In this document: in pieces, positions 4,843 through 60,726 of the stretch
How the letters are laid out: each line of letters opens with the position of its first letter
How positions within the stretch are numbered: the first letter of the stretch is position 1
NCBI RefSeq assembly: GCF_050624435.1
Contig: NC_134546.1
Span: 17,817,001 to 17,881,000, forward strand
DNA from: Tenrec ecaudatus
Taxonomy: Eukaryota; Chordata; Mammalia; Afrosoricida; Tenrecidae
DNA: 64,000 bases
Direction: 5' to 3'
The notes under the pieces: generated by a model
What the model saw: only the letters and a program-made list of their open reading frames with translations
The model's database searches: none
Told to the model about the DNA's origin: nothing
Program-made: the position numbers and the translations under genes

Positions 4843-6225
4843 TAAAAAATAATTTTATTAGGGGCTCATATAATTCTTATCACAATCCATACATACATCA
4901 ATTGTATAAAGCACATTTGTACATTTATTGCCTTCATCATTCTCAAAATATTTGCTCTACACTTAAGCCCCTGGCATCAGGTCCTCATTTTTCCCCTTCC
5001 TCCCTGCTCCCCACTCCCTCATGAACCCTTGATAATTTATAAATTATATTTTTGTCATATCTTGCCCTGTCCAATGCTTCCCTTCACCCACTTTTCTGTT
5101 GTCTTGCCCCAGGGAGGAGGTCACATGTAGATCCTTGTAATTGGTTCCCCCTTTCCAACCCACCCTCCCTCCACCCTCCCAGTAACGCTGCTCACACTAC
5201 TGGTCCTGAAGGGATCATCCATCCTGGATTCCTTGTGTTTCCAGTTCCTATCTGTACCAGTGTCCATCATCTGGTCTGGCCAGACTTTCAAGGTAGAATT
5301 GGGATCATGATCGTGGGGGTGGGGAGGAAGCATTTAGGAACTAGAGGAAAGTTGTATTTTTCATCGTTGCTACATCGCACCCTGACTGACTCGTCTCCTC
5401 CCCCCAACCCTTCTGTAAGGGGATGCCCAGTGGCCTACAGATGGGCTTTGGGTCTCTACTCCATACTCACCCTCATTCACAATGATATGATTTTTTGTTC
5501 TGATGATTCCTTATACCTGAATCCTTCGATACCTTGTGATCACACCGGCTGGTGTGCTTCTTCCATGTGGGCTTTGTTGCTTCTGAGCTAGATGGTCACT
5601 TGGTTACCTTTAAGCCTTTAAGACCCCAGACGCTATATCTTTTGATAGCTGGGCACCATCAGCTTTCTTCACCACATTTGCTTATTCATCCACTTTGTCT
5701 TCAGTGGTTGTGTCGGGAAGGTGAGCATCATAGAATGCCAATTTAATAGAAGAAAGTATTCTTGCATTGAGGGAGTACTTGAGTGGGGGGCCCAATGTCC
5801 TTCTGCTACCTTAATACTAAACCTATAAATATATGCACATAGATCTATTTCCCATCCTCATATATAAATATATTTGCATATATATATATATATAATCTTT
5901 ACCTAGACCTCTATAAATGCCCTTTGCCTCCCAGCTCTTTCCTCTATTTCCTTTTACTTTACTCTTGTCCCACTATCATGCTCAGTCTTCCTTTGAGTTT
6001 CAGCAATTCCTCTTGGTTACATTGCCCTTGATCATGCCCTACCAGGCCTCCCACACCCTCTTCACCAGCGATTTGAATCACTTGTTGTTCCCTTGTCCCT
6101 GGGTTTGTTAACACCACTATCTTTCCCCCTACCTCCCCCTCTCCCATGTCCCCCTGGAACTGTTGGTCCCATTGTTTTCTCCTCCAGATTGTTCATCCAG
6201 CCTATCTTATTTAGACAGATCTGCG
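4843..6225 (-). mobile_element. 5'-truncated L1 (afrotherian 3' UTR), reverse, with 13-bp target duplication
   Basis: The reverse complement is an afrotherian L1 3' UTR: the polyadenylation signal and end correspond to aataattttattaggggctc at the left. The 13-bp sequence acatctgttcatt is repeated exactly at 4830-4842 and 6226-6238, which marks a normal target-primed insertion of about 1.38 kb. No ORF2 coding sequence is retained. The long frames seen here (for example 5052-5591) are chance openings in the UTR antisense. Confidence 0.9.
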
Positions 6226-13416: not shown

Positions 13417-14345
13417 TGTCATGATAGTGGGGAAGAGGAAGCATTAAAGAACTAGAGGAATGTTGTATGTTTCATCTGTACTATACTGCACCCTGGCTGG
13501 CTTGTCCCTTCCTTGTGACCCTTCTGTGAGGGGATGTCCAGTTGTCTACAGATGGGCTTTGGGTCTTCACTCTGGCCCTCCTCATTCACATCAGTATGAT
13601 TGTTTGTTTTGAGTCTTCTTATACGCCTGATCTTGTCAACACCTCATGATCACACAGGCTGGTGTGCTTTTTCCACTTAGGATTTGTTGCTTCCCAACTA
13701 GATGGCCATTTGCTTATCTTCAAGCCTTTAAGACCCCAGATGCTATATCTTTTAATAGCCGGGCACCATCAGCTATCTTCACCACATTTGCTTATGCACA
13801 CATTTTGTCTTCAGCGATAGTGTTGGGAAGGTGAGCATCACAAAATGCCAGGTTATTAGAACAAAGTGTTCTTGAGTTGAGGGAGGACTTAAGTAGAGGC
13901 CCAAGGTCCATCTGATACCTTAATACTTAACATATAAATATATGTACATAGCCCTCTATCCCTATCGTTATATATAAATATATTTACATATGGATGTGCC
14001 ATATTTATACCTCTAAATGTCTTTTGCCTTCTAGTTCTTTCCTCTACTTCCTTTTACTTTCCTCCCGTCCTACTATCATGTTCAACCTTCATTCGACTCT
14101 CAATAATTCCTCTTGATTACATTGCATTTGATCAAGCCCCACCAGGCATTCTATGCTCTCCTCATCATCGATTTTAGATCTCTTGTCCCTTTGTCCCTGG
14201 GCTTGTTGGCTCCCCCTCCTCCTTTCCCCCACCTCCCCTTCTCCCCTGCCCTGCTCCCCCACCTGAACTGTTGATCCTGTTTTCTCCTCGGAATTGTTTA
14301 TCCTGCCTAGCTTATATAGATAGACATAAAACAAAAGAAAAAGCC
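13417..14345 (-). mobile_element. L1 3' UTR fragment, reverse, lacking its 3' end
   Basis: Starts internally at gtcatgatagtggggaagag with no poly-T, then follows the same UTR through gacgctatatc-like text and the AT-rich tract near 13940. The missing 3' end suggests truncation by recombination or by the 12015-13417 segment. Confidence 0.8.
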
Positions 14346-32477: not shown

Positions 32478-32742
32478 GAACATGCTTGCCAACGCAGCCA
32501 GCGTGCGGATCCTCATCAAGGGAGGCAAGGTGGTGAACGATGACTGCACCCACGAGGCTGACGTCTACATTGAGAATGGCATCATCCAGCAGGTGGGCCG
32601 GGAGCTCATGATCCCCGGCGGGGCCAAGGTGATCGACGCCACCGGGAAACTGGTGATCCCCGGGGGGATCGACACCAGCACCCACTTCCACCAGACCTTC
32701 ATGAACGCCACGTGCGTGGATGACTTCTACCACGGTACCAAG
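32478..32742 (+). CDS. DPYSL5: DPYSL5 (CRMP5) coding exon 1, residues 1-87
   Basis: DPYSL5 is a cytosolic member of the collapsin response mediator family, neuronal adaptors that bind tubulin and related partners and shape neurite growth. The exon starts after a pyrimidine-rich tract and AG at 32476-32477; four UTR bases precede the ATG at 32482, which has A at -3. It ends in AAG at 32742 before GTAATG, phase 0. The short N-terminus (MLANAASVRILIKGGK) identifies DPYSL5, since DPYSL1-4 begin MSYQGKK or MSFQGKK. Residues 12-87 form the start of the amidohydrolase-like fold. At 61-69 (GGIDTSTHF) the enzyme family's HxH metal motif is SxH: Ser66 replaces the first histidine and His68 remains, as expected for a non-enzymatic CRMP. 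An in-frame ATG at 32422 lies in the intron and is not used. Family function is known; identity comes from sequence recognition. Confidence 0.97.
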
Positions 32743-40985: not shown

Positions 40986-41760
40986 GGCCACTGACTAGCC
41001 TTTTTTAAAAATCATTTTATTGGGGGCTCATACAACTCTTATCACAATCCATACATACATCAATTGTATAAAGCACATTTGTACATTCGTTATCCTCATA
41101 ATTCTCAAAATATTTGCTCTCCACGACAATGCTTCTTTAAAAAAAAATCTATTCTGCCACTCTGTGACTTTTTTTTTTTTTAGCACATTTGTACATTCAT
41201 TTCCCTCATCATTCTCAAAACATTTGCTCTCCACTTAAGCCCCTGGCATCAGTTCCTCATTTTTCCCCTCCCTTCCCACTCCCCCTCCCTCATGAGCCCT
41301 TGATAATTTATAAATTATTATTGTGTCGTATCTTTCCCTGTCCGACATCTCCCTTCACCCACTTTTCTGTTGTCCATCCCCCAGGGAGGAAATTATATGT
41401 AGATCCTTGTAATCGGTTCCCCTTTCCAGCCCACCCTCCCTCCACTCTCCCAGAATCGTCACTCACACCACTGGTCCTGAAGGGATCATCCGCCCTGGAT
41501 TCCCTGTGTTTCCAGTTCCTATCTGTACCAGTGAACATCCTCTGGTCTAGCCAGATTTGTAAGGTAGAATTGGGATCATGATAGTGGGGATGGGGTGGGG
41601 GAGGAAGCATTTAAGAACTAAAGGAAAGTTGTATGTTCCATCGTTGCTACATCGCACTCTGACTGGCTTGTCTCCTCCCAGAGATCCTTCCGTAAGGGGA
41701 TGTCCAGTGGCCTACAAATGGGCTTTGGGTCGCCACTCCGCACTCCCCCACCCCATTCAT

Positions 41761-42240
41761 AATGATATGATTTTTTGTTCTGATGATGCCTGATACCTGA
41801 TCCCTTTGACACCTTGTGATTGCACAGGCTTATGTGCTTCTTCCATGTGGGCTTCGTTGCTTCTGAGCTAGATGGCTGCTTGTTTACCTTCAAGCCTTTA
41901 AGACCCCAGACGCTATATCTTTTGATAGCCCGGCACCATCAGCTTTCTTAGCCACATTTGTTTATGCACCCATTTGTCTTCAGCGATCATATCAGGGAGG
42001 TGAGCACACAATGATATGATTTTTTGTTCATTGATGCCTGAGAACTGATCCCTTCGGCACCTCATGATCACACAGGCTGGTGTGCTTCTTCCATGTGGGC
42101 TTTGTTGCTTCTGAGCTAGATGGCCACTTGTTTACCTTCAAGCCTTTAAGACCCCAGCCGCTATATCTTTTGATAGCCGAACACCATCAGCTTTCTTTAC
42201 CACATTTGATTATTCACCCGCTTTGTCTTCCTCAATTGTG
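41761..42240. repeat. Tandem duplication (about 249-bp period) in L1 3' UTR
   Basis: The segment starting aatgatatgattttttgttc occurs at 41761 and again at 42010, and both copies continue through ttcaagcctttaagacccca. The other L1 copies here (for example near 5481-5735) have it once. Confidence 0.85.
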
Positions 42241-42341
42241 TTGAGAAGGTGAGCATCATATAATGTCAATTTAATAGAAGAAAGTATTCTTGCATTGAGG
42301 AAGTACTTGAGTGGAGGCCCAATGTCCATCTGCTACCTTAA

Positions 42342-42546
42342 CCTCCCTGGCAGTCTAATGATGTCAGTAATTTTGTAACCCAAACGGTACATTATTTTGC
42401 ATAACATTTGTTGTTTTATATTGTAGGCCTGTAAGTCTTAAGAAATTACTCATTTTAATCTCTCTAGTAGACAGTCCAGGTATGATAAGCTTTAATACAC
42501 AGTTAACATTTACCCTGAACCACTCTTGGGATTACCATCAGGGAGG
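42342..42546 (+). mobile_element. piggyBac-type MITE, 205 bp, TTAA-flanked
   Basis: Flanked on both sides by TTAA (42338-42341 and 42547-42550). It opens CCTCCCTGGCAGT and ends in a sequence whose reverse complement is CCTCCCTGATGGT, so the first 8 bases are perfect inverted repeats. Internal text includes gttttatattgtaggcctgt. The L1 copy at 5802-5850 shows the empty site ctaccttaatactaaacc, which proves precise insertion at TTAA. It has no transposase. TTAA targeting and CCY termini are established traits of the piggyBac superfamily. Confidence 0.85.
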
Positions 42547-43551
42547 TTAATACTAAACTTATAAATATATGCACATAGATCTTTTTCCCCATCCTCATAT
42601 ATAAATGTATTTATATATGTACATGCCTTTATTTAGACCTCTATAAATGCCCTTTGCCTCCCAGCTCTTTCCTCTATTTCCCTTGACCTTCTTCCTGTCC
42701 CATTATCATGCTCAGTCTCCACCTGGATTTCAGCAATTCCTCTTGGTTACATTACCCTTGATCACACCCTACCAGGCCTCTTACACCCTCCTCATCACCA
42801 ATTTGGATCACTTGTTGTTCCCTTGTACTGGGTTTGTTAACACCGCTACCTTTCCCCCCACCTCCCCCTCTCCCATGTCCCCCCAGAACTCTCAGTCCCG
42901 TTGTTTTCTCCTCCAGATTGTTCATCCAGCCTATCTTATTTAGACAGACCTGCGGAGATACTAACATGCACAAAAACAAGACAGCAAAACCAAGCAACAA
43001 TATACAACAAAACAACAACAAACAATGACAAAAAAACTAAACAAAACACAACAAGAAAGAAGAGCTTATAGTTAGTTCAAGGACTGTTTGTTGGCCTTTA
43101 GCAGTGTTTTCCGGTCCAGTCTGTTGGGGCACCACGCCCTGGCCCCAAAGTCCACCTTCAGCACTCCCTGGGGACCTTGCCGCTCCGTTCCCTTGCTGTT
43201 CTATTGCACCCCCTTAGTGTTTTGCCTCCTTGTGGCGGGATCAGATCGGGTGCAATTCCCACACTGTGTCTCCGATGTTGTTCCCTGTAGGGCTATGGGT
43301 CAGTGAGGATGACTGACTAGCTTCTAAAACCCCAGTTACTACTCACAAAATTATTAAGTGGAACATTGCTGTTGTGAACCTTGTTGTGCCAGTTGACCAT
43401 GTGATCTCTGAGACTATGATCATGCCCCTGTATTAAAGTCAGCTGCTCCATAGAGCATAACCTTGTCACATTCCCAATTCATGTGGAGGGGACCCTACAA
43501 GAGTGTGGATCACCGGGAGTCGCCTTCGAGTTCGACCATAAGAGAAGATGC

Positions 43552-58661: not shown

Positions 58662-58820
58662 GCAGCACTGGTTGGAGGCACTACCATGATCCTGGGTCAC
58701 GTCCTGCCCGACAAGGAGACCTCCCTTGTGGAAGCCTATGAGAAGTGTCGGAGTCTGGCTGACCCCAAAGTCTGCTGTGACTACGCCCTCCATGTGGGGA
58801 TCACCTGGTGGGCACCCAAG
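58662..58820 (+). CDS. DPYSL5: DPYSL5 coding exon 2, residues 88-140
   Basis: A 159-base, 53-codon exon of the collapsin response mediator protein DPYSL5. It follows the acceptor CCCCCCTGCAG at 58661 and ends in AAG at 58820 before GTAACA. It opens [17 protein letters not shown] and closes [13 protein letters not shown]; the GGTTM and CCDYALHV stretches are family hallmarks. It adds part of the barrel of the amidohydrolase-like domain. Both ends are phase 0, so it joins the flanking exons without frame change. The TTMILGH variant and the TWWAPK end separate it from DPYSL1-4. Frame continues open upstream of the acceptor by chance and is not coding. Confidence 0.97.
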
Positions 58821-59498
58821 GTAACAGTGCTGGCTGGGAGGCAAAGAGAAGGCACAGCAGGCTCTCTTAGGCTGAGAGTCATTTGAGCCGAACCAGGGTG
58901 CATGGGGCTCTAGTGCACGTCTAGGACACCTTTCTTACTTCCTAACTCTCCCAAGCACCCCCCACCCACCAAAGAGAAAAAACACTTAAAATCGCAAGAG
59001 TGGGCTGGCCTCATCTGCTTAACATAATGGAGTTAAGAGCCGGTTTCCAGCAGACACAGGCTCTAAGAAGTTTCCTACGGCAGGAGGGTCTTGCTCTGGC
59101 CATGACTCTAGCTCCCTCTGCATTAGGTGTTGCTGGCACAGTGCTGCTGAGCAGGGCGCTGAGCAGGCTTGGGATCAGGGGTCGCTTCCTGTTTGTGCTG
59201 AGAGGCAATAGCTTCCAGCTGACCTCTCTCAGATTGCCTGGGAGGCCTGGAGCCCAGTGAGCTTCTTGCTGCTGGGTCCCGCTCCCCCTCTGGCCTGTGG
59301 CTCAGCCTGGCTTCTTCCCTGCCTCAAGCCTTCCCTCTGTACCCACTTTGTGCCTGTGCCCTGTGCCGGGTTGGGGAAGGTGAGCAAGAGGGAGATTGCC
59401 AATGTCCTTGGGGTGCCTCCATTGCTCCCCTAGCACCTGCCCATCTGCCTCTTGGAAATCGGGAATCCCAGAATGTTTCCTTTGCATGCTCCTTCCAG
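58821..59498 (+). other. DPYSL5: DPYSL5 intron, 678 bp
   Basis: GT donor at 58821 and acceptor TGCTCCTTCCAG ending 59498. No repeat or gene recognised inside. Confidence 0.95.
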
Positions 59499-59678
59499 GT
59501 GAAAGCGGAAATGGAGACCCTGGTGAGGGAGAAGGGTGTCAACTCGTTCCAGATGTTCATGGCCTACAAGGACCTGTACATGCTCCGAGACAGCGAGCTC
59601 TACCAAGTCTTGCGTGCCTGCAGGGACATTGGAGCGATCGCCAGAGTCCATGCTGAAAACGGGGAGCTCGTGGCCGAG
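59499..59678 (+). CDS. DPYSL5: DPYSL5 coding exon 3, residues 141-200
   Basis: A 180-base, 60-codon phase-0 exon. It starts at GTG (Val141) after AG at 59498 and ends at GAG (Glu200). Key motifs are [10 protein letters not shown], where Lys164 sits at the position of the carboxylated metal-bridging lysine of dihydropyrimidinase, and [11 protein letters not shown], where His191 is a former metal ligand. Together with Ser66 in the first exon, this shows a domain that kept part of the metal site but lost one ligand, fitting the known lack of enzyme activity in CRMPs. The donor is GC (GAG|GCAAGT), not GT. A GT four bases further (59683) would add four bases and break the frame with the next exon, so the GC site is the right one. 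Confidence 0.96.
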
Positions 59679-60657: not shown

Positions 60658-60726
60658 GGTGCAAAGGAGGCGCTGGACTTGGGCATCACCGGCCCAGAAG
60701 GGATCGAGATCAGCCGTCCAGAGGAG
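60658..60726 (+). CDS. DPYSL5: DPYSL5 coding exon 4, residues 201-223
   Basis: A 69-base, 23-codon phase-0 exon. It starts GGT GCA AAG (GAKEALDLG) after AG at 60657 and ends GAG GAG (SRPEE) before GTGAGG at 60727. The LGITGPEGIEISRPEE stretch is the conserved TGPEG motif of dihydropyrimidinase-like proteins; the variant IEISRPEE is that of DPYSL5, where other CRMPs have HVLSRPEE or HALSRPEE. Joined to the preceding exon it reads VAE-GAKE without interruption, which confirms the GC donor choice. The small size makes it easy for gene finders to miss. Confidence 0.96.

Follow-up and report, generated by a model that had tools for sequence, protein, structure and literature searches.

piggyBac transposons and their short non-autonomous derivatives are the closest described systems for the element analysed here, and piggyBac MITEs with parents are a kind already known. 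For the transposase, two PDB entries serve as reference points: piggyBat (9c0f), whose host we take to be the bat Myotis lucifugus, and the piggyBac of 6x67, presumably that of Trichoplusia ni, in which D268, D346 and D447 are assumed to be the catalytic residues. Young piggyBac activity in mammals is described for mouse lemur and vesper bats in the part of a review available to us (PMC5857283), and for Miniopterus in the accessible text of PMC4971623, which gives 1.35–7.58% divergence for nPiggyBac-1 to -3_MNa and 577 copies for one of them. Likened by description, the element reported here shares with these families its non-autonomous nature, TTAA duplications, low copy number and young age, and differs in host, theirs being the bat Miniopterus natalensis (PMC4971623, same text). 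The tenrec itself also carries Chapaev3/Conan, likewise a recent DNA transposon, for which the portion of PMC4079192 used here reports a 3- to 4-bp target duplication and CAC ends, as opposed to the TTAA and CCT ends of our element; a Chapaev identity is ruled out by the wrong ends and the wrong target duplication. Among the matches listed in a literature search of titles and abstract openings, a tenrec piggyBac was not named, and the tenrec MITE family may already have a name in Repbase or Dfam.

The window, that is, the whole 64,000-nucleotide stretch of tenrec DNA under analysis, contains a piggyBac MITE of 205 bp at 42342–42546, on the plus strand and thus opposite to the transposase frame of its parent. 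A TTAA lies on each side (42338–42341 and 42547–42550, plus strand), placed in both cases by sequence, end pairing and empty-site alignment, so that the copy including both TTAA spans 42338–42550, starting with TTAA-CCTCCCTGG and ending with CAGGGAGG-TTAA. The terminal inverted repeats of this copy, CCTCCCTG on the left (42342–42349, plus strand) and CAGGGAGG on the right (42539–42546, minus strand), form together with TTAA a 12-bp end repeat of 100% complementarity, whose arms are separated by 189 nt. In the consensus, the left repeat is 13 bp long (CCTCCCTGGCGGT; right, ACCGCCAGGGAGG), and the terminal inverted repeats of the MITE and parent consensus reach 17 bp including TTAA. Allowing up to two mismatches, CCTCCCTGGCAGT was found four times in the 64-kb window against 3.73 expected, and TTAACCTCCCTGG three times against 2.58, neither being above chance. 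The case for the element therefore rests on its paired ends flanked by TTAA, on the sites without an insertion and on a family found throughout the genome. Rfam at gathering scores gave no match in the window, single-stranded DNA folding was not unusual (z = -0.15), and a bacterial promoter and terminator scan, which has no bearing on a MITE, found nothing.

When the MITE was cut out together with one TTAA, its flanks aligned through the insertion point to two other places in the window, 5572–6067 (87.7%) and 13683–14167 (80.1%), both copies of the same repeat on the minus strand and each with a single TTAA. Six more copies elsewhere in the genome (6/6) have the same uninterrupted site with a single TTAA, at 88.7–90.7% over approximately 300 bp, which brings the aligned uninterrupted sites to eight; they are unoccupied paralogues of the repeat, not excision products. 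Copies in the L118–L120 stretches likewise align through the insertion point, at 77–85%, and stand outside the eight-copy alignment. A 450-bp query from the host repeat returned 6238 first-look candidates in the genome, and all 40 that were scored matched over nearly the whole query, the best of them, self excluded, at 91–92% identity. The frame scan for L1 domains covered one of six fetched long copies, L123, in which fragments of L1 ORF1 (PF02994, E = 3.1e-19; PF17490, E = 1.7e-15) and of the endonuclease (PF03372, E = 1.4e-7) lie upstream of the site on the expected strand. From this one long copy elsewhere, we infer that the host repeat is an L1, antisense in the window, where its 3′ part would occupy at least 41001–43000 on the minus strand (left limit from self-comparison, right limit the end of the genome query). 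Within this 3′ region, approximately 250 bp are tandemly duplicated (41758–42023 and 42007–42272; 83% identity over a 267-position alignment).

These alignments bear out the account of the locus given in the earlier note, which had described a 205-bp element between two TTAA, inserted precisely into an L1 of which other copies in the window keep a single TTAA at the insertion point. That note had also called the MITE younger than its host, which follows because the MITE interrupts the L1 copy. Both lie between two exons of DPYSL5 (CRMP5) identified by PDB match to 4b91 (32482–32742 and 58662–58823, plus strand): the frame stops at 32742, at residue 88, and resumes at 58662, at residue 89. Two further plus-strand segments, 59505–59570 and 60658–60726, were placed by string match only and are candidate exons that we presume to belong to the same gene.

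Genome-wide, we searched the window's own assembly (3.918 Gb, 2140 contigs). The MITE query yielded 983 first-look candidates, and all 40 that were scored matched, comprising the query itself and copies at 90–92% identity, with the full 213 positions matched in 19 of the 40. For a 28-bp pattern spanning the internal junction, two mismatches being allowed, the genome has 172 matches (69 forward, 103 reverse), whereas the control gave 0; by binomial arithmetic from these 172 matches, and not by direct count, approximately 210–225 copies of the MITE carry this junction. Copies measured 212–214 bp as cut; where an alignment had stopped short, the copy was lengthened to match the full query. The element is thus short, multi-copy, uniform in length and free of a transposase frame, as expected of a MITE. 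Two of the copies (L019 and L031), 34 kb from each other, are identical in their immediate flanks; they represent a single insertion within a duplicated segment, and enter the copy counts as two. In three others (L083, L101 and L105), the left end is three bases shorter (TTAACCCTGG), and it is therefore variable or slipped more than once.

An exactly placed TTAA flanks both ends of 19 of 40 copies in the set nearest to the query and of 9 of 40 in the set sampled by the junction; with a tolerance of a few bases for end changes, these numbers rose to 25/40 and 19/40. Target-site duplication of TTAA, a feature of piggyBac, is seen at the window copy, against the eight empty sites and in these copies. 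Arithmetic at 5% divergence predicts that all eight flanking bases stay unmutated in approximately two thirds of copies, so decay and truncation explain most of the missing TTAA pairs. In five copies, the two flanking tetramers agree with each other without being TTAA (ATAT in L034 and L117, CTAA in L032 and L087, TTAG in L088), a pattern that suggests sporadic insertion at off-consensus sites more than decay.

We identified the parent of the MITE by searching the genome for the transposase domain PF13843, which gave 118 matches, every one listed being above the curated cut-off. When the best 30 of these 118 loci were fetched, 17 matched the family at the DNA level and 13 did not. Both MITE ends are present in 13 long copies, twelve of which span 2283–2522 bp, the remaining one (L074) being internally deleted to 1587 bp; two of the 13 (L054 and L067) have damaged left ends. 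The left end matched at 15 loci, and the parent consensus was built from the 13 of these that have both ends, leaving out four family loci that each lack one end (L065, L071, L075 and L077). This majority consensus is 2409 bp long. Positions 1–164 of the MITE consensus are identical to parent consensus 1–164 (164/164), and MITE consensus positions 162–213 correspond to parent consensus 2358–2409 (51/52 identical), the two blocks overlapping by the 3 bp ACA. In the window copy, the left block, TTAA included, occupies 42338–42501, the right block 42499–42550 and the deletion junction with the shared ACA 42499–42501, all on the plus strand. On this sequence comparison, the MITE is a derivative of the autonomous parent by internal deletion. 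The transposase frame lies on the opposite strand of the parent, at approximately 276–2009 of the consensus, and thus outside both MITE blocks. Near the right end of the parent and internal to it, at consensus 2310–2346, the right-end segment recurs in inverted form (31 matching positions among 37 aligned, with a single gap), a stretch that the MITE has lost.

The consensus frame encodes a 577-aa transposase in which PF13843 (DDE_Tnp_1_7) is matched over its entire profile (1–349 of 349, E = 9.2e-91) and the C-terminal cysteine-rich domain matches the PF13842 zinc finger (E = 3.8e-6). Of the PDB proteins, piggyBat (9c0f) matched at E = 2.5e-68 and 233.9 bits, and 6x67 at E = 8.8e-31 and 109.9 bits. 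The tenrec transposase and piggyBat share the transposase family, the DDD triad, the C-terminal cysteine-rich tail and nearly the same length (577 and 578 aa), although the sequence similarity, which extends over most of the length, is no more than moderate (233.9 bits), and the comparison concerns the transposases. With 6x67, the tenrec transposase shares the PF13843 core and D268, D346 and D447, all three of which face aspartates in the consensus transposase as counted by hand on the alignment; this match is much weaker than that to piggyBat, and the alignment ends before the C-terminal tail. All 13 long copies are broken, their longest ATG frames being 108–286 aa. As no long copy has an ATG frame above 286 aa, present activity is not supported.

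Ends, TTAA, family and a parent with piggyBac transposase domains thus agree with the earlier identification of the element as a piggyBac-type MITE. The check suggested at the time, a search for an autonomous partner, led to the 13 long copies with MITE ends and their 577-aa consensus transposase, and the concern that the element might be single-copy without TTAA-flanked relatives is answered by the junction matches and by the TTAA pairs in both sets of copies.

To date the spread, we calculated non-CpG K2P divergence from a consensus built from the 40 copies nearest to the query. The mean was 4.2% for these 40 copies and 3.6% for the same copies in a second alignment without TTAA; this set is biased to low divergence, as samples chosen by similarity date young. 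A junction sample comprised 40 of the 42 zero-mismatch places outside the first set, among 100 listed of the 172 matches, and its 36 near-full copies had a mean of 4.8%, four truncated copies being left out. The 13 long parent copies had a mean of 5.4% to their consensus, and the window copy itself is 6.1% from the MITE consensus. Calendar ages depend on a published rate, and at the tenrec rate of 2.9173e-9 given in the available part of PMC4079192 the mean divergences would correspond to 12–19 million years. A slower rate, 1e-9 substitutions per site per year, would place the four means at 36–54 million years. Mean pairwise divergence divided by mean divergence to the consensus was 1.81 (73 of 80 copies), a star-like pattern, and variants present in at least 8 of the 73 copies fell at CpG sites or within 7 bases of the ends, with the exception of C91T (8/73). 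The simplest reading of these alignments is that the MITE copies would go back to one source sequence.

Taken together, the element is almost certainly a non-autonomous piggyBac transposon that derived from the approximately 2.4-kb parent and spread in a star-like burst. In the history that we propose, a piggyBac of this size, with its 577-aa DDD transposase between short inverted ends, would have been active in the tenrec lineage. One copy would have lost approximately 2.2 kb between two ACA trinucleotides, keeping 164 bp and 52 bp of the ends. The parent transposase could then have bound the ends of the short form and moved it in trans, by cut-and-paste through hairpin ends with insertion at TTAA and duplication of the TTAA; end binding, hairpin cut-and-paste and trans-mobilisation are taken here from established piggyBac biology. 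The short form may have multiplied to some 200 copies or more in a single star-like burst approximately 12–19 million years ago, and the window copy would have inserted into an older L1, in its 3′ region, within a DPYSL5 intron.

As to where the family came from, a horizontal transfer to the tenrec lineage from another vertebrate, whether from a frog- or reptile-like donor or by way of a shared vector, is probable and adds to the best explanation. The young, single-source, star-like burst of this family fits a transferred transposon. The earlier note had pointed to frogs, and MITEs of frogs and other vertebrates with CCTCCCTGGCGGT ends and a TATTGTAGGCCTGT core may share these features with the tenrec MITE; a text search of the literature for the end and core strings gave nothing relevant. 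Precedents are available: in the consulted part of the 2018 review, hAT and SPIN elements are recorded as having been transferred to the tenrec, and piggyBac elements to mouse lemur and vesper bats (PMC5857283), and the 2014 paper, in the text available, dates the entry of Chapaev (Conan) into tenrec to 26–36 million years ago (PMC4079192). Against this reading, fewer than 3% of the transfers detected in a 2020 vertebrate-wide survey were in mammals and birds, according to the part of that paper used here (PMC7070016). Searches of prokaryote genome contigs (exact 24-mer and 22-mer) and viral contigs (three patterns and one transposase search) found no relative, in collections that contain no animal genomes, so that this result carries little weight.

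A vertically inherited mammalian piggyBac lineage that was reactivated, with a late burst in its tenrec host, would dispense with transfer, and the genome does contain other PF13843 sequences, namely the 13 of 30 loci that do not match the family DNA, some of which may be domesticated host genes. However, these 13 are distant, at 24–36% amino acid identity over alignments of more than 50 residues, with two short pieces at 42–45%, and no close older relative appeared among the best 30 of the 118 PF13843 matches, which makes reactivation an unlikely source of the family. Far less probable still is an old element common to placental mammals: nothing was found for it, and copies 4–5% from their consensus, or approximately 12–19 million years old, argue against inheritance from a placental ancestor. 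Even the rate of 1e-9 yields no more than the 36–54 million years given above, and the split from elephants is older than that. A chance palindrome with flanking TTAA, to which the chance-level frequency of the short end motif in the window might lend itself, is refuted for practical purposes by the 172 matches to the junction, for which the control gave 0, by the eight empty sites and by the parent with identical ends.

The genome also holds other piggyBac sequences. Seven loci (L052, L057, L059, L062, L063, L072 and L073) form a second family, with ends that by eye read TTAACACATTGC.../...AATGTGTTAA and with approximately 82–92% DNA identity among copies in alignments of more than 1 kb. The transposase of L052 is 34% identical to that of the first family and has an uninterrupted frame of 619 aa from stop to stop, or 596 from the first methionine. 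Two further PF13843 matches without stops and without MITE ends (L050 and L053) lie 0.77 Mb apart on one contig, are 83% identical over 1742 aligned positions and are possibly duplicated domesticated genes.

Returning to transfer, we lean slightly towards a fuller account in which an undescribed, frog-like piggyBac family was transferred less than approximately 20 million years ago, gave rise to the MITE by one deletion, reached a few hundred copies and then died. If that is true, the second piggyBac family would mean that no fewer than two piggyBac lineages have entered tenrecs. Since MITE and transposase are both in hand, a test of the transfer is straightforward. A young family with its parent in tenrec would add another mammal group to those with young piggyBac activity, and the MITE insertions offer presence/absence markers for tenrec relationships.
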